This document shows positions 4,337 to 63,091 of a stretch of 64,000 bases of DNA, one piece after another. Every line of letters begins with the position of its first letter. The stretch's first letter is position 1. The stretch spans positions 1,240,001-1,304,000 of the forward strand of contig NZ_CP114777.1 of assembly GCF_027359355.1 (NCBI RefSeq), given 5' to 3'. The translations under genes were made by a program, and so were the position numbers. The notes beneath the pieces were generated by a model. That model was not told the DNA's origin. It did not search any database and was given only the letters and a program-made list of their open reading frames with translations. The DNA is from Prochlorococcus marinus str. MIT 1214 (GTDB lineage: Bacteria; Cyanobacteriota; Cyanobacteriia; PCC-6307; Cyanobiaceae).

Positions 4337-6373
4337 TTATTTACCCACTAATCTATGCCGTAATTTCTTTATTCGATCTCTCAAAAGTGCAGCCTTTTCA
4401 AAATCTAGATCTTTAGCTGTCATTTTCATTTTAGATTCCAATTTTTCGATTAATTCAGGTAAAGAATCCAAGGATATAGCACTATCAGAATCTTTTGAGC
4501 TATGCTCGATAAGTTTATCTGCAATATCGACAAAATCAGCAGGGTTTCCGTCTTGATTTATTCTTCTTGAGAGCTCTAAAAAAGAAAGAATTGAATTGTT
4601 CGCTTTCTTCCCTGCAGCTTTAGGAGTTATACCGTTCTCAATATTATAAATATTTTGTATTTCACGGCGTCTTTCTGTCTCACTTATTGCCTTTGCCATA
4701 GAGTCGGTCATTTTATCTGCATAAAGCAAAGCTAAACCTTCAACGTGCCTCGCTGCACGACCGATTGTTTGTATTAACGATCTTTGTGCTCTTAAAAATC
4801 CTTCTTTATCTGCATCAAGAATTACTACAAGAGAGACCTCAGGTAAATCTAAACCTTCTCTCAGAAGATTAACTCCAACTAATACATCATATTCTCCCAA
4901 TCGTAAATCTTGAATAATTTCAATTCTCTCGATCGAATGAATCTCTGAATGTAAATAGCGGACTCTTATTTTATTTTCAGATAAATAATCAGTAAGATCT
5001 TCAGCCATTCTTTTCGTAAGAGTTGTCACAAGTATTCTTTGACTTTTCGATGCTCTTTTCCTGATTTCAAAAAGTAAATCTTCAACTTGTCCATGTGTTG
5101 GACGTACTTCCACTAAAGGATCTAAAATACCAGTAGGCCTAATAACTTGCTCAACTATATTTCCTGTACTTTGAGACAGTTCCCAGTCGCCAGGTGTTGC
5201 ACTAATAAAAACAGTTTGTTTTGCCTTATTCCAAAATTCTATATCCTTTAAAGGACGATTATCTGCTGCACTAGGTAATCTAAAACCATGATCAATTAAC
5301 ACTTTTTTTCTAGCTTGATCACCATTATACATAGCCCTTAATTGAGGGCAAGTAACATGACTTTCATCAATAAATAATAACCAATCTTTCGGGAAATAAT
5401 CAATAAGGCATTCTGGCGCAGAGCCAGGTTCTCTTCCAGATAGATGACGAGCATAATTTTCGACTCCATTACAGTATCCAACTTCTTTTAACATTTCTAA
5501 ATCATAAATTGTTCTTTGTTCTAATCTCTGAGCCTCGAGTAATTTACCCTCTTGATTAAGAAATTCTAATCTATCGTTTAATTCTTTTTTTATTGCCAGA
5601 ATTGCCAATTCTAGTCGATCTTTTGGCGTTACAAAATGTTTTGCTGGGTAGATATTAATTGAGTCAAGTTTATTTAATATTTCACCTGTAGTAGGATCCA
5701 CATAAGTAATACTCTCAACTTCATCCCCGAACAATTCTAATCTAACAAGTCTATCATCATATGCTGGTCCGATTTCTAACACATCTCCTCTAACTCTGAA
5801 CCTACCTCTGCTGATTTCAATATCATTACGTGTGTATTGATTTGACACTAATGATCTAAGGCAGGCTCTTAAATCAATATTCTGACCAACTTGAAACTTA
5901 ACAGAAGCCTTTAAATATTCACTTGGAATTCCCAAACCATATATACAACTAATTGAAGCAACAACTATGACATCATCTCGTTCAAATAAAGATCTAGTTG
6001 CAGAATGACGTAACATATCAATTTCTTCATTAATTGATGATGTCTTTGCTATATAAGTATCACTAATTGGAACATAAGCCTCTGGCTGATAATAATCATA
6101 ATAAGATATAAAATATTCAACAGCATTCTCAGGGAAAAATTCCCTTAGTTCATTACATAGCTGAGCTGCAAGTGTTTTGTTATGAGCTAAAACTAACGCT
6201 GGCCTCCCAGTTTGAGCTATCAAATTAGCTATAGTAAAAGTTTTTCCTGTTCCAGTTGCACCTAATAAAGTTTGAAACTTTTTACCACTATTTACACCTC
6301 CAACGAGTCCTTTAATAGCCGCAGGTTGATCACCTTTTGGTAGATAAGGAGCTTGAAGGTTATATTCAGGCAT
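4337..6373 (-). CDS. uvrB: UvrABC system protein B (excinuclease subunit)
   Basis: UvrB is the damage-verifying helicase-like subunit of nucleotide excision repair, which works with UvrA and UvrC. The Walker A motif GATGTGKT is at residues 38-45. The beta-hairpin region [12 protein letters not shown], which clamps DNA, is near residue 95. The helicase motifs [10 protein letters not shown] and QTIGRAARH follow. The C-terminal UVR segment ([19 protein letters not shown]) that binds UvrC is present. The 678-residue length is usual. It starts at an ATG. The expected excision partners are not in this window. Confidence 0.98.
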
Positions 6374-57318: not shown

Positions 57319-58104
57319 CTATATAGGAATTGGAAATGTCACTTCAGCTGGCTTTGGAGAGCAAGCTTCTACTTGAAAATCCACAACTGAACCTATTACA
57401 ACAATCGCAGGAGACCTTAAATTTTCTTCTTGAACTCGGTCGAAAAGCTGTACCAAAGGGCTCTTAATATAACGTTGACCAATTACAGTCCCCTGCTCAA
57501 TAACTGCCGCAGAAGTCTCAGGATGCATACCACCAGCAATCAACTCTGCTGAGATAAATTTTAAATTATGAACACCCATATATATAACGATTCCATCACT
57601 GGATTTCGCTAAAGACCGCCAATTTACAGCTGGGCGTTTTTTATCAATCTCCTCATGTCCAGTCACAAAAGTGACTGACGATCCAGCAAGTCTATGAGTA
57701 ATAGGTATCCCAACATAAGCAGGAGCAGCTATACCTGATGTAACCCCAGGTACTACTTGTACTGGAACCCCTTTTTTATGCAGATAAGAAGCTTCTTCCG
57801 CACCTCTACCAAACAAAAATGGATCACCACCTTTTAATCTAACAATACAAGAATAACTCTTTGCTAAATCAAACAAAATATCATTCGTTTTCCTCTGAGG
57901 AACCGAATGATGACCACGCCTCTTACCTACTGAATGAAGTTGACAATTTGAAGAAACTAATTCAAGTAGCTCTACAGGAACTAAAGAGTCGTATACCAGC
58001 GCATCACATTTACTAATTAGTTTTTGCGCTTTAACTGTTAATAAATCGGGATCTCCAGGACCTGCTCCGACAAGATAAACAGTGCCAAACTGATGTGTAT
58101 TCAT
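57319..58104 (-). CDS. cobA: Uroporphyrinogen-III C-methyltransferase (SUMT)
   Basis: CobA methylates uroporphyrinogen III at C-2 and C-7 to give precorrin-2, the branch point for siroheme and cobalamin. The family motifs VGAGPGDPDLLTVKA and RLKGGDPFLFGRGAEE are both present, with VVPGVTSGIAAPAYVGIPIT in the middle. The 261-residue size is the single-function form, without a siroheme CysG-type fusion. It overlaps the upstream CbiX-like gene by 4 bp, and that pair is divergent from nirA, whose enzyme needs siroheme. Confidence 0.96.
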   Translation of the reverse strand: MNTHQFGTVYLVGAGPGDPDLLTVKAQKLISKCDALVYDSLVPVELLELVSSNCQLHSVGKRRGHHSVPQRKTNDILFDLAKSYSCIVRLKGGDPFLFGRGAEEASYLHKKGVPVQVVPGVTSGIAAPAYVGIPITHRLAGSSVTFVTGHEEIDKKRPAVNWRSLAKSSDGIVIYMGVHNLKFISAELIAGGMHPETSAAVIEQGTVIGQRYIKSPLVQLFDRVQEENLRSPAIVVIGSVVDFQVEACSPKPAEVTFPIPI

Positions 58105-58913
58105 GGCAAGTTACCCAAAATATTAACAAGACCACGATGAATAATATCAATCTCAAGCAAAGATTTAAGCTGCTCTCCTTGACTATCAATTTCTACATTT
58201 TTGTTGGGAGTCAAAAGATAGGGAATAGGGAGATAATTCTTCTTCTTTTTAAAAGTATCTTGATTCCATCTAGACCATGAATAAAGAGGAATATTTAGGA
58301 ATTTTTCTAAGGACTTAAGAAAAACACTTGAAGTAACTGAAGAGACAGGGTGATGAATCAATGCAGGTTTAACAAAAGGACTCTGACTAGTTATCAGATC
58401 ATCTATTAATGATAGCCATGGTATAAAAGAACCTAGGAAAGGAAACAATTTTATATTTTGTCCATCTTCTTGCAAACGTTTAAATATTGTTGGTACATCA
58501 ATACAAACATGACTTCCAGGTAACAAAAAAAGAGGAACTAAAAACACTGACCTATTACCGATGTCAATTTGTTCTGGATTGTCATCAGTTAAAGCCTCTA
58601 TTGAAACAGAGCGATTTTTCAGCCTTTTTAATTGGTCAACCAAAAAAAGAAGAGATGGATGTATCTCACCACCTCGAGAACCATGAACTAATAAATGTAA
58701 ATGGTGAGGAGGCTCACAATTAATTCTATTTGGTAACAAAGACAACTTTTGATGAGCATCTGAAGATGTATTAGTACTTTCAACTAATTTATTAAAATTG
58801 AGATGATGAGAAATTCTAGATACTCGGGAACAAATAATTTCAGACGAGGAGAGGGGGTTAATCGAAGGAAGACTCAATACAGAGGAAGAAAAAGATTCAA
58901 AAGTACTTTTCAT
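58101..58913 (-). CDS. CbiX/SirB-like chelatase domain protein
   Basis: This protein has a CbiX-type domain with LLVHGSRGG (metal-ligand histidine H77) and a second histidine in VPLFLLPGSHVCIDVP. Family members insert Fe2+ or Co2+ into sirohydrochlorin. I place the start at ATG 58913 (270 residues); the frame extends to TTG 58994 with extra low-quality residues. A second C-terminal domain of about 100 residues has no assigned role. Overlapping cobA and opposite nirA, it is a candidate siroheme ferrochelatase (inference), and cobalt insertion is not excluded. Confidence 0.75.
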   Translation of the reverse strand: MKSTFESFSSSVLSLPSINPLSSSEIICSRVSRISHHLNFNKLVESTNTSSDAHQKLSLLPNRINCEPPHHLHLLVHGSRGGEIHPSLLFLVDQLKRLKNRSVSIEALTDDNPEQIDIGNRSVFLVPLFLLPGSHVCIDVPTIFKRLQEDGQNIKLFPFLGSFIPWLSLIDDLITSQSPFVKPALIHHPVSSVTSSVFLKSLEKFLNIPLYSWSRWNQDTFKKKKNYLPIPYLLTPNKNVEIDSQGEQLKSLLEIDIIHRGLVNILGNLP

Positions 58914-59047
58914 AGAGATCTCTTTGCTATGAAAGAAGTTTGGGAAATGCTCAAAAGTGGAGCGATTAGAAGCCTCGGAGAAATTGGACGCCAATACTAA
59001 ATGAGAAATTTTGAAACTAATTAATCAATTTAATGGGTAGATTTGGT

Positions 59048-59147: not shown

Positions 59148-60809
59148 ATGGTTCAATACTATCTCGAAGGCAAAAAACTAAATAAAGTTGAAAAAAATAA
59201 AGCTGCTAAGGATGGACTAGAAATAGGAAAGGATATAGACAAATTTGCTGAAATGGGATGGGAGCAAATGGATAAAACTGATTTAGAATTAAGATTGAAA
59301 TGGTATGGGATGTTTTGGAGACCAAAAACACCTGGAAAGTTTATGTTAAGGCTAAGAATACCTAATGGAATAATTAATACAGAACAATTAAAGGTAATTG
59401 CATCAATTGTTGCGAGATATGGAGAGAATGGAAGTTGTGATATAACAACTAGGCAAAATATACAACTTAGAGGTGTTTTGATTAGTGATTTGCCTGAGAT
59501 ATTAAATAGGTTAAAAAAAGTAAACATATCGACAACTCAATCTGGATTTGATAATCCAAGAAATGTTACTGGAAATCCCATCGCTGGAGTTGATCCAAAA
59601 GAAATTATAGACACAAGAAAATATACATCACAAATGCAAGATTATTTAACTAATGAAGGTAAAGGAAACTCAGAATTTTCAAATCTTCCAAGGAAATGGA
59701 ACACAGCTATAGCAGGTTCTAAAGATAATTTTCTTTTACATAATGATTTGATTTTTCATCCAGTTAAAATTAATGGAGTTTTAGGTTTCAGTGTATGGAT
59801 TGGAGGTGTACTTTCATCAGTAATGAATGAATATGCAGTTCCGTTGAATGCATGGGTTGAAGAAGAAAAAATTTATGAATTAACATCAATTATTTTATCC
59901 CTCTGGAGAGATAATGGGGAACGTAATATAAGACCTAAAGGTAGGTTTAGATTTTATTTAGATAAAATTGGTGTTGAAAAATTTAGAGATCTTATCGAAA
60001 AACAATATGGAGCATTAAAAGAAGATCCAGGTTCAATATTTTCAGAAAAACCAAGGTCATTTTTTGGAATTCATTCTCAAAAACAAGAAGGTAAATATTT
60101 TGCAGGAATTCATGTGCCAGTAGGCCGTCTTTTGGCTGAAGATTTACAAGATATAGCAAATATATGTGAGAATTTTGGTGATAAAGAAATAAGACTTACC
60201 GAAGACCAAAATATTATTATTACTGGTATAGATACAAATCTAATTGAAGAATTTAAGAAGCAATCTATCTTACAAAAATTTCCATTAAAACCAGAAAATA
60301 TTGCCGCAGGTACTGTTTCTTGTACTGGAAATACCTATTGTGGTTTCGCTCTGACAAATACAAAAGATCAAGCTTTAAAAATCTCGCATGAATTAGACAA
60401 AGAATTAGATTTGAAAGACGAATTAAAGATTCATTGGACCGGGTGTCCTAATAGTTGTGGTCAAGCCTACATGGGAGGCATTGGTTTAACGGGTAAAAAA
60501 GCTAAAGACAAAGAAGGAAAAACTGTTGAAGCTTATGATATAAGCATTGGTGGATCACAAGGTCCTAATTATAAATTAGGAGAATTAATAAAAAAATCTG
60601 TCCCTCAAGATGAATTAAAAGATGTACTAAAAGATTTACTTATTTCAAATTTTGAGGCAAAAGAAAAAAAATTTTTAAGTAAAAAATCTGGTTCATTCTC
60701 TCGATTTATGAATTGGTTGAGTCCTCTTGGCAAAGATAAACCGCTGATTAATCGAGCCAATGGCAGCCCCGACATCTTTTCCAAATTTATGAATCGAATT
60801 AGTAATTAA
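59148..60809 (+). CDS. nirA: Ferredoxin-nitrite reductase
   Basis: NirA reduces nitrite to ammonium with six electrons from ferredoxin, using a [4Fe-4S] cluster and siroheme. The ligand cysteines are C392 and C398 (CTGNTYC) and C433 and C437 (GCPNSC). TTRQNIQLRG and FSVWIGGVLSS are family segments. I use ATG 59148 (553 residues), because the NtcA-linked start site lies inside the longer frame from TTG 59079. The last 40 residues (514-553, starting SGSFSRFMNW) extend beyond the usual conserved end and are repeated in the downstream array. Confidence 0.95.
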   Translation: MVQYYLEGKKLNKVEKNKAAKDGLEIGKDIDKFAEMGWEQMDKTDLELRLKWYGMFWRPKTPGKFMLRLRIPNGIINTEQLKVIASIVARYGENGSCDITTRQNIQLRGVLISDLPEILNRLKKVNISTTQSGFDNPRNVTGNPIAGVDPKEIIDTRKYTSQMQDYLTNEGKGNSEFSNLPRKWNTAIAGSKDNFLLHNDLIFHPVKINGVLGFSVWIGGVLSSVMNEYAVPLNAWVEEEKIYELTSIILSLWRDNGERNIRPKGRFRFYLDKIGVEKFRDLIEKQYGALKEDPGSIFSEKPRSFFGIHSQKQEGKYFAGIHVPVGRLLAEDLQDIANICENFGDKEIRLTEDQNIIITGIDTNLIEEFKKQSILQKFPLKPENIAAGTVSCTGNTYCGFALTNTKDQALKISHELDKELDLKDELKIHWTGCPNSCGQAYMGGIGLTGKKAKDKEGKTVEAYDISIGGSQGPNYKLGELIKKSVPQDELKDVLKDLLISNFEAKEKKFLSKKSGSFSRFMNWLSPLGKDKPLINRANGSPDIFSKFMNRISN

Positions 60810-60850
60810 TTCGATTTTATAAAAAATTATTTTTCTTACTTTTTAAATTT

Positions 60851-61012
60851 ATGACTCAAAGTACTTCTCAAATGAGCTACGTCTTGCCTAAAGATTCTAT
60901 TTCTCGCTTCATGAATTGGTTTAACAACCTTGGTAAAGATAAACCGCTGATTAATCGAGCCAATGGCAGCCCCGACATCTTTTCCAAATTTATGAATCGA
61001 ATTAGTAATTAA
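60851..61012 (+). CDS. Chimeric microprotein 1 (FocA-like leader plus NirA-like tail)
   Basis: A 53-residue frame starts at ATG 60851 and stops at TAA 61012. The first 15 residues (MTQSTSQMSYVLPKD) match the FocA N terminus MTSSASQMDYVLPNE. The remaining 38 match the NirA C terminus, from SRFMNW onward. The 41-bp sequence before it is identical to the one before focA, so the same translation signals apply. No Shine-Dalgarno sequence is visible. Synonymous changes against focA in the YVLP codons and against nirA in SRF hint that it is translated (inference). No function is known. Confidence 0.6.
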   Translation: MTQSTSQMSYVLPKDSISRFMNWFNNLGKDKPLINRANGSPDIFSKFMNRISN

Positions 61013-61053
61013 TTCGATTTTATAAAAAATTATTTTTCTTACTTTTTAAATTT

Positions 61054-61215
61054 ATGACTCAAAGTACTTCTCAAATGAGCTACGTCTTGCCTAAAGATTC
61101 TATTTCTCGCTTCATGAATTGGTTTAACAACCTTGGTAAAGATAAACCGCTGATTAATCGAGCCAATGGTAGCTCCGACATCTTTTCCAAATTTATGAAT
61201 CGAATTAGTAATTAA
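61054..61215 (+). CDS. Chimeric microprotein 2 (FocA-like leader plus NirA-like tail)
   Basis: This second 53-residue frame is the next copy of the first, 203 bp downstream. It differs by one residue: proline 41 becomes serine (GSPDIF to GSSDIF), and one change is silent. Start, upstream spacer and stop context are the same. It ends 41 bp before the focA start. If translated, both would be co-expressed with nirA and focA from the NtcA-linked promoter. Confidence 0.6.
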   Translation: MTQSTSQMSYVLPKDSISRFMNWFNNLGKDKPLINRANGSSDIFSKFMNRISN

Positions 61216-61256
61216 TTCGATTTTATAAAAAATTATTTTTCTTACTTTTTAAATTT

Positions 61257-62168
61257 ATGACTTCAAGTGCTTCTCAAATGGACTACGTCCTACCAAATGA
61301 ATTGGTAGATGGAATGATTGCTGCAGGTGGCAAGAAATCATCTGTAAGCGTAAAAAACTTGCTAATAAGAGGCTTCTATTCAGGAGCAATTTTAGGTTTA
61401 GCGACATGTCTTGCAATTACTATAGGTATTCAATCTGGGATGCCTTGGTTAGGTTCTTTTATATTTCCTTTTGGTTTTGCAAGTATCGTTCTTTTCGGTA
61501 TGGAGCTTGTTACTGGTAATTTTGCGTTACTACCAATGGCCGTATGGGCTGGAAAGAGTTCTTGGTCTGCAACTGTAAGGAATTGGCTATGGGTTTGGAT
61601 CGGTAATTTTCTAGGTACAGCATTTGTTGCTGTTCTACTATCCATCAGCTTGTCCAGTGCTGGAAATGTTGATCCTTTAGCTGCTGCTGAAGGTGGAAAA
61701 GGATGGGCAGTTGTAGCAGCAAAAATCATAGCTATACATAAAGCAAACACAGTTGTGAAATATGAGGCACTTGGAAGTACTGGTTTTTTCCTCGCATTTT
61801 TACGTGGGGTAATTGCAAACTGGCTAGTTTGTTTAGGTGTAACAATGGCACTTGTAAGTAAAAGTGTTCCAGGAAAGATACTTGCTTGCTGGCTCCCTAT
61901 AACTGCATTCCAAACAATGGGAATGGAGCACATAGTAGTTAATATGTTTTTGCATACAACTGGCCCTCTACTAGGATCAGGTATTCCTTTTACAAAAGTA
62001 ATTTTTTGGAATTTCTTACCAGTGACGATTGGAAATATTGTTGGAGGAATGGTATTTATTGGAATGCTTTTCTATAGCACCCACAAAACTCCTATCTCTA
62101 ATGTTTTACCAGACGTAAAAGATGAAAAATTAGAACGAGAGCTCGAAGCACAACTTGGTGCAAGATAA
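61257..62168 (+). CDS. focA: Formate/nitrite transporter family protein
   Basis: This 303-residue membrane protein of the FocA/NirC family forms pentameric channels for small monovalent anions. Six hydrophobic helices are visible, and the family motif MGMEHIVVNMF is near residue 222. The neighbouring nirA makes nitrite the likely substrate. The N terminus (MTSSASQMDYVLPNE) is related to the leaders of the two upstream microproteins. The gene probably shares the nirA transcript and ends before a strong terminator. Confidence 0.95.
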   Translation: MTSSASQMDYVLPNELVDGMIAAGGKKSSVSVKNLLIRGFYSGAILGLATCLAITIGIQSGMPWLGSFIFPFGFASIVLFGMELVTGNFALLPMAVWAGKSSWSATVRNWLWVWIGNFLGTAFVAVLLSISLSSAGNVDPLAAAEGGKGWAVVAAKIIAIHKANTVVKYEALGSTGFFLAFLRGVIANWLVCLGVTMALVSKSVPGKILACWLPITAFQTMGMEHIVVNMFLHTTGPLLGSGIPFTKVIFWNFLPVTIGNIVGGMVFIGMLFYSTHKTPISNVLPDVKDEKLERELEAQLGAR

Positions 62169-62380: not shown

Positions 62381-63091
62381 ATGATTATTGAAGAAAGCAA
62401 TATATGGGATACGCTTAATAACGCAAAAAAAACTAAGCCAAGCGCTGAGTGGCTTCGGAATGCATACAATCCGAATATCAACTACGAGCTTAGGCAAGAA
62501 ATCGCAAATCGCCTAGGACAATTTTCAAAAGTAGGATGGATAAAAATAAAAGATCTAATTAATACATATGGCAATAAAGATGAACTAATTCTTGCCGCAG
62601 GACTTACCTATCAAGAGGATGCCAAAGAATGGCTCTTAAAACATCTTTATGATGATGACACTATGAACATCAAAATCGTAGAAGCTTTAGCTTGCTGGGG
62701 AGGAACATTACCGATTGAGCTTATCAAAACAATATTAGAAGATAAACGTGAACACATGAAAATAGCTGGTCTAGAATTACTAAAGTTTAAAGCTCATTTA
62801 CTTTCTGATTCTCATTTACTTGATATAGCAAAGTCACCTTTAAATGATTTCAGAGAAAAGATAGTGATCAAAACACTGACCATCATTCAAAGACGTGAAA
62901 GCCTAGATATCTGTATAGCTATCAGCGATGTAATACAAAAAGGATCGGATAAGTCTGCATACTACGGCTTAATGGCTCTTGGTTCAATCGGAACTGAAAT
63001 TAGTAAAAATATCTTATTAGATTTGGTCAAAAATTTAAAGAATGCTCAACGCAAAGAACTTGCAAAAAAACAACTTAACTTTGAAATATAA
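62381..63091 (+). CDS. HEAT-like repeat protein
   Basis: The 236-residue protein is helical, with HEAT/Arm-like repeats. The clearest are YYGLMALGSIGTEISKNIL near the end, VEALACWGGTLPIELIKTIL and LNYELR-type helices, as in phycobiliprotein-lyase-type HEAT proteins. The catalytic role is unknown. HEAT-type accessory proteins are linked to nitrite or nitrate reductase in other cyanobacteria, so the position after nirA and focA is suggestive. It has its own 212-bp upstream region with no NtcA box that I can see, and a partner gene follows 6 bp downstream. Confidence 0.7.
   Translation: MIIEESNIWDTLNNAKKTKPSAEWLRNAYNPNINYELRQEIANRLGQFSKVGWIKIKDLINTYGNKDELILAAGLTYQEDAKEWLLKHLYDDDTMNIKIVEALACWGGTLPIELIKTILEDKREHMKIAGLELLKFKAHLLSDSHLLDIAKSPLNDFREKIVIKTLTIIQRRESLDICIAISDVIQKGSDKSAYYGLMALGSIGTEISKNILLDLVKNLKNAQRKELAKKQLNFEI

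Follow-up and report, generated by a model that had tools for sequence, protein, structure and literature searches.

Two tandem copies of a gene for a 53-residue microprotein were found between nirA, which encodes ferredoxin-nitrite reductase, and focA (also called nitM), which encodes a formate/nitrite transporter, in the genome of Prochlorococcus marinus str. MIT 1214 (NZ_CP114777.1, positions 1,240,001 to 1,304,000 of the forward strand). This whole stretch of 64,000 nucleotides is called the window; it comes from genome G000 of our survey, a single contig of 1.93 Mb belonging to genus g1. The microprotein is a member of a conserved family made of two amphipathic helix motifs, the family is linked to focA across genomes, its domain was borrowed by NirA, and in the clade of the window the free copies carry a leader captured from FocA. 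The tie to both FocA and NirA made in a preliminary description of this DNA is retained as the best reading, and that the microprotein works together with the transporter and the reductase is put forward as a possibility a little short of an even chance. In this proposal the two motifs would act as docking helices on the cytoplasmic C-terminal segment of FocA, the docking would lift a block that the segment places on nitrite transport, and a NirA bearing the motifs would do likewise, so that nitrite entry would come to depend on the enzyme which removes nitrite.

A repeat search of the window gave a tandem unit of 203 bp at 60692-61300. Two full units lie between nirA and focA, each consisting of an intact 53-codon open reading frame (ORF) and a 41-bp spacer, and the same spacer stands after both ORFs and before focA. 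The full units had been called perfect copies; the repeat is real, but they differ at 2 of 203 nucleotides, and one of the two differences changes proline to serine. The partial third copy is also present, since the 3′ end of nirA holds the distal part of the same unit and equals unit 1 exactly, but only over 60732-60850.

Selection on the peptide had been argued from silent differences between the copies and their flanks. This argument is selective and weak as made, as replaced codons outnumber silent ones in both comparisons (2 silent and 4 replaced among 14 codons for the FocA leader against micro-ORF 2; 4 silent and 5 replaced among 40 for the NirA tail against micro-ORF 1). The claim itself stands on comparative evidence. 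The ORFs look like true coding sequence under purifying selection, and for the free copies of other genera the ratio of nonsynonymous to synonymous substitution rates (dN/dS) has a median of 0.18 over 261 pairs with none above 1, the pairs being restricted to proteins 60% or more identical and to dS of 0.05-1.5, a choice which leans to low values. Across 42 diverse family members six positions are invariant, the start methionine included; the members are mostly of 41-53 residues, with one nearly invariant tryptophan, no conserved cysteine and two predicted helices. The microprotein is an internal repeat in which the pattern D-x-F-S-R-phi-phi-N-x-phi-S occurs twice, and none of 300 column shuffles was as good. 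Both motifs are amphipathic, with mean moments of 0.63 and 0.66 against 0.32 and 0.35 in shuffles; a moment as high was seen in 2.5% of shuffles for the first motif and in 4.6% for the second. The window copies match the family profile over both motifs (E 8.7e-27 and 8.1e-26; wider profile 5.0e-21 and 1.3e-20), the window sequence itself being a row of both profiles, and like the rest of the family they are short ORFs directly upstream of focA/nitM.

Other identities for the micro-ORFs were tried and rejected. A fragment of a FocA/FNT protein is excluded by the absence of Form_Nir_trans from both micro-ORFs, which matched no Pfam family, and the likeness to FocA is limited to the first 14-17 residues. 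Matches to known Pfam or NCBIfam families and to solved relatives were weak and at chance level only. When 242 genomes of the class were searched for relatives outside the window's family f1, 15 had a match, of which 12 were in f1, and the other three (single matches, E 0.003-0.005) were taken as chance.

The linkage was surveyed in 300 genomes of f1, among which the domain occurs in 118, focA in 134 and nirA in 233. Nearly all domain-positive genomes have focA (117 of 118), and 114 genomes have both a free copy, decayed in G347, and focA; in 113 of them the copy immediately precedes focA, and G320 has them on separate contigs. Both states are found within genera g1, g5, g10, g61 and g79, where 44 focA-positive genomes carry the domain and 30 genomes with nirA and without focA lack it. 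The exceptions in these five genera are three focA-positive genomes without the domain, namely G037, where the contig with nirA breaks off, and two with a decayed micro-ORF, G283 and G337.

The NirA tails were surveyed in 108 NirAs from chosen loci (L130 and L132 have no nirA in the stretch and are not counted, and L135, counted as tail-less, is cut by a contig end), including 11 of the 101 genomes with nirA and without focA. The full domain was found in 21, the first motif in 11, the second motif in 3, another tail of at least 15 residues in 21 and no tail in 52. All motif-bearing NirAs are in focA-positive loci; the tail is absent from all 11 focA-less loci, yet also from many focA-positive Synechococcus-type loci. 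According to the NirA tree, two origins on starred branches must be assumed for the second-motif type. The full, first-motif and other-tail types are gathered in a single further group, whose support of 94 is just short of the star. A further second-motif NirA, outside the tree, comes from G538, where an intact free copy next to focA is lacking. Overall, NirA acquired one motif or both on at least three occasions. The domain is on NirA only in three of the 118 genomes (G006, G020 and G127), and the NirA-borne motif is the only one found in G127 and G538, as if it could stand in for the free protein.

The same data bear on the direction of the exchange. The preliminary description had treated the micro-ORFs as junction chimeras, with a FocA-like leader joined to a NirA-like tail; the leader is indeed derived from FocA, but the C-terminal part is not a copy of NirA. 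Beyond the clade of the window this sequence forms a gene by itself and has a start of its own; it is typically a free ORF of 44-47 codons before focA, accompanied by a NirA without the full domain. The conserved part of NirA ends ahead of the domain, and the 11 NirAs read from focA-less genomes all end without it, so it was also rejected as a fragment of the NirA body. From these comparisons the free gene is judged to be the common form, and the NirA tail of the clade to be the same domain fused on, that is, borrowed by the enzyme.

It was also considered that the microprotein regulates NirA itself, as a lineage-specific counterpart of NirP1, with FocA being a mere genomic neighbour. The repeated joining of the motifs to NirA would fit this, and there is a precedent in NirP1 for small-protein control of NirA in cyanobacteria, NirP1 being reported absent from Prochlorococcus and most marine Synechococcus (PMC10907346; here and below, published statements are taken from the accessible portions of the papers cited). 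We regard this explanation as unlikely, since the domain is missing from 100 of the 101 genomes that have nirA and lack focA, the exception (G197) being a draft with a paralog elsewhere, and since the free gene is still beside focA in L148 and L149, where nirA is 2-3.5 kb away.

The preliminary description had pointed to E. coli, in which the N terminus of FocA binds PflB and affects transport; for cyanobacterial NitM, published work (PMC4390861) indicates that regulation lies with the C-terminus. In that work nitM genes were expressed in the Synechococcus elongatus mutant NA4 lacking nitrite transport. NitM of MIT9313 and of CC9311 was inactive alone and active without its last 21 residues, while NitM of CC9605, which is without the segment and 20 residues shorter than that of CC9311, was active; the authors proposed in 2015 that NitM is activated through the segment by an unknown mechanism, and excessive nitrite uptake was described as damaging (PMC4390861). 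Among 97 complete FocA ends from chosen loci (L123 was omitted because of a contig end), the segment is missing only in L133 and L134, and both have a decayed micro-ORF whose remnants still align to sister genomes. Both segment and microprotein are present in G148 and G289, which are probably MIT9313 and CC9311, respectively. The FocA of L133 (G283) ends 20 residues before the usual form, and G283 is very probably CC9605, as FocA/NitM ends 20 residues early in both. The segment also changes with the NirA fusion: the last seven residues of FocA read AAELGAR in all 67 loci where the microprotein is free and NirA lacks the full fusion; in the clade with the NirA fusion they read (E/A)AQLGAR (all 21 loci), and in G127, whose only motif is NirA-borne, AAQMGGR. 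At the site before DEKL, read by eye, 66 of the 67 AAELGAR loci have H and one has K.

We infer that the effect on FocA is that of an activator rather than a co-inhibitor, because the published full-length transporters are inactive when expressed alone, and such a lock would make sense because excessive nitrite uptake is damaging. Taken further, the microprotein, free or fused to NirA, could be the missing activator of the autoinhibited picocyanobacterial NitM, forming a safety interlock that is rewired by moving the motif between a free protein and an enzyme; this stronger form is doubtful and offered tentatively. Alternatively the motifs may be a pure tether, holding both NirA and microprotein to the membrane close to FocA for hand-over of nitrite with the activity of the transporter unchanged. 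The amphipathic character of both motifs suits a tether, as do the 21 NirA tails without a recognised motif, which look like amphipathic helices by eye, and in the NirA model (mean predicted local distance difference test score, pLDDT, of 81 overall) the last 43 residues average below 60, which fits a flexible tether, although the output was without contacts and neither shows nor excludes packing of the tail. The tether is rated as rather unlikely because it leaves unexplained both the published silence of full-length NitM alone and the changes of the FocA C-terminus that accompany the NirA fusion.

The arrangement in the window is an extended form of that in its clade. In the other 20 loci of the clade (rows L002 and L003 were omitted as repeats of L001), nirA encodes the fused domain and focA follows, preceded by a single free copy in 16 loci and by no free copy in 4; the window is the only one of the 21 loci with two free copies. 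Counted in units, the window has 3, 16 of the other loci have 2 and four have 1; each of the clade's four further single-contig genomes (G019, G025, G032 and G033) has 2 units. The four 1-unit loci come from drafts whose names are in single-cell style, and their repeats may have collapsed in assembly; reading these loci as ancestral was set aside for this reason. L032, a locus of the same genus, is of another type: its NirA bears just the first motif, and its free ORF lacks the leader from FocA.

The micro-ORFs of the window start with MTQSTSQMSYVLPK and the FocA of L010 starts with MTQSTSQMDYVLPN. As the FocA leader is strongly conserved outside the clade (SQMDYVLPNELVDGM and variants), the leader of the clade's micro-ORFs is judged from these alignments to have come from FocA. 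A simple history would be that the free gene was fused to nirA and that a tandem duplication then restarted the domain from the start codon of focA, this order being the probable one. Duplication through the 10-bp match ATGAATTGGT common to nirA and focA was rejected as a simple explanation, because by inspection the resulting joint is out of frame for the observed ORF.

Within the clade the copies of one genome share strain-specific changes. They differ by a mean of 3.0 (range 0-16) against 10.8 between genomes, and none of 10,000 permutations was as low (15 genomes; L007 was left out of the count because the pattern found only one copy there). It is improbable that the repeats are a by-product of an unstable junction duplication, with micro-ORFs that are functionless since NirA carries the domain: the homogenised copies, the four loci without a free copy and the varying copy number would agree with it, but the family is conserved across the lineage, the domain in its 15 distinct clade sequences has 18 silent against 10 replaced changes (leader 3 against 3), and the ORF, for which the preliminary description had named stops or frameshifts in related strains as a sign against real products, is open in all 16 clade loci having a free copy and in both copies of the window.

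Genus g1 was taken as the LLI clade, inferred from its nirA/focA content and from the split into type I and type II NirA reported for LLI Prochlorococcus (PMC10470740; PMC6370341). Five g1 genomes (G010, G027, G009, G012 and G038) have a divergent NirA of about 70% identity, without focA and without the microprotein, and resemble the type II NirA group; the type II NirA strain MIT0917 excretes nitrite (PMC10470740).

Several observations weigh against the proposal that the microprotein acts with FocA and NirA. The joint loss of segment and microprotein in L133 and L134 is a single event in two sister genomes, and chance is possible. The segment is kept where the microprotein is absent (genus g9, with 10 genomes by search and 2 read, and G101, G132, G153, G533 and G541) and where it is decayed (G347), so the segment does not always need the microprotein. 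The domain is lacking in 17 of the 134 focA-positive genomes (G048, G140, G167, G189, G207, G222, G236, G247, G258, G268, G101, G132, G153, G283, G337, G037 and G051), among which G283 and G337 are decayed and G037 and G051 fragmentary. Within genus g5 (34 genomes), focA occurs without the domain in G533 and G541, and in G538 the domain is confined to NirA. In g10 the NirA of the focA-less genomes is more distant (E about 1e-77 to 1e-141 vs 1e-236 to 1e-245), and there the absence of the domain may go with the type of NirA. An intact micro-ORF stands beside a broken focA in G165 (L176, in-frame stop) and in G322 (L158, split into two frames). The AlphaFold single-chain models revealed no partner, their confidence being low for the NirA tail and for the microprotein (mean pLDDT 64.8, predicted template modelling score 0.28). 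Another gene of the cassette, nirX, could be the activator.

Copies away from the transporter belong to the same side of the account. Paralogs distant from nirA and focA occur in three genomes (L213 3560-3829, L216 4194-4313 and L214 at about 4696-4797), those of L213 and L216 being of the MDLFSAFVNWFSELGKDLPE type. A free microprotein is found on two viral contigs of IMG/VR (57.5 and 81 kb), near a phage-type psbA and without a FocA match, which hints at a use during infection, and a further viral contig (L207 3316-5875) has focA, a small AbrB-like ORF (by eye) and nirA in this order with no match to the microprotein. Taken together, the viral copies without FocA and the rare unlinked paralogs mean that the microprotein may have a second target. 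The psbA near the viral microprotein is about 90% identical to those of Prochlorococcus and Synechococcus phages and was the only one with a named function in a PHROGs scan of 15 viral-contig proteins. Neither Terminase_6 nor FocA was matched in either of the two microprotein-bearing records, and named phage records gave no match to the microprotein or to a 20-kb piece of the viral contig. The L207 contig resembles a scaffold described in PMC8115048. By eye, the neighbours of the L214 paralog are flavodoxin-like and chlorophyll-binding-like, and a neighbour of the L216 paralog is PurT-like.

Table 1. Features of the nirA-focA region (positions in the window; the last row is given in positions of its own record)
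Feature	Position	Strand	Basis or remark
nirA, ferredoxin-nitrite reductase, 553 aa, microprotein domain fused at C-terminus	59148..60809	+	Pfam NIR_SIR, NIR_SIR_ferr; start chosen by comparing relatives
NirA-fused microprotein domain, both helix motifs	60690..60806	+	Free-standing family profile positions 5-47, 74.3 bits
41-bp spacer, copy 1	60810..60850	.	
Micro-ORF 1, 53 aa, FocA-derived leader and microprotein domain	60851..61012	+	
Micro-ORF 1, first amphipathic motif DSISRFMNWFN	60893..60925	+	Internal repeat; helix 14-29 in low-confidence model
Micro-ORF 1, second amphipathic motif DIFSKFMNRIS	60974..61006	+	Internal repeat; helix 43-52 in low-confidence model
41-bp spacer, copy 2	61013..61053	.	
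Micro-ORF 2, 53 aa, P41S relative to micro-ORF 1	61054..61215	+	
41-bp spacer, copy 3, before focA	61216..61256	.	
focA (= nitM), formate/nitrite transporter	61257..62168	+	Pfam Form_Nir_trans, 1.4e-62
FocA leader; a relative of it heads the micro-ORFs	61257..61298	+	
FocA C-terminal segment, last 21 residues	62103..62165	+	Corresponds to the residues whose deletion makes MIT9313 and CC9311 NitM active; function published for other strains
HEAT-like gene by focA, probably nirX	62381..63091	+	HEAT_2 match weak, E 0.0041, below its cut-off
Viral free microprotein (IMG/VR)	L205 5977-6123; also L206, L210, L211		

The HEAT-like gene of Table 1 is probably nirX, a name given for its position, by comparison with the focA-nirA-nirX cassette of PMC6370341. 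On the other side of nirA and divergent from it, a CbiX-like protein (E 8.4e-6) is encoded at 58101-58994 of the reverse strand, and a methyltransferase-like ORF (by eye) at 57319-58104 adjoins it; this pair may perhaps supply sirohaem to NirA.

A literature search, with subscription papers mostly outside its coverage, turned up no account of the family, of its linkage to focA, of NirA fusions arising repeatedly or of copies led by FocA sequence. What is already known is one ORF of a single strain, SynWH7803_RSS12335 of WH7803 (PMC9430850, 2022), which has 44 residues and two predicted helices, lies between nirA and nitM, is cotranscribed with both, is of unknown function and is raised 194- and 239-fold in two conditions; its similarity to the nitrite reductases of CB0101 and NATL2A was also reported. 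It belongs to the same family in the same position, and L114 (WH7803) and L175 carry the 44-residue copy. The accessible text of PMC9430850 suggests that this ORF evolved from existing nitrogen genes, whereas here the free form is widespread and focA-linked, with NirA as the recipient of the domain. Tandem FocA-led copies like those of the window are not described in that text, and no protein-level evidence for the ORF was seen in it, no search aimed at such evidence having been made.

Among small proteins of cyanobacterial nitrogen assimilation, NirP1 (PMC10907346) is alike in acting at the nitrite step and in its tie to NirA. It has 81 residues (mostly 76-86), one absolutely conserved cysteine, three tryptophans and predicted beta strands, and membership was rejected because the window ORFs have 53 residues, no cysteine and one tryptophan. 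PirN (PMC13205821), a small protein coordinating cyanobacterial nitrate assimilation, has the DUF1830 domain and is reported absent from Prochlorococcus; membership was rejected as well, DUF1830 not being among the 14 Pfam families matched at E<=1 by any of the 42 family members. The NitM/FocA of alpha-cyanobacteria (PMC4390861) is the product of the neighbour gene, and the constructs of that study encode nitM, the microprotein not being mentioned in its accessible text. For the activating mechanism of NitM the microprotein is a concrete candidate, as it is in the same operon, is present with the transporter and was repeatedly moved onto the reductase, and Prochlorococcus, by taking up and losing nitrite, may shape the primary nitrite maximum of the ocean (PMC10470740). 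In kind, it is rated with the small proteins that control transporters or enzymes, and what is unusual is the exchange of the motif between a free protein and an enzyme. As a natural example the case is clear: a single short motif passes between microprotein and enzyme, and a new start was taken over from the adjoining gene.

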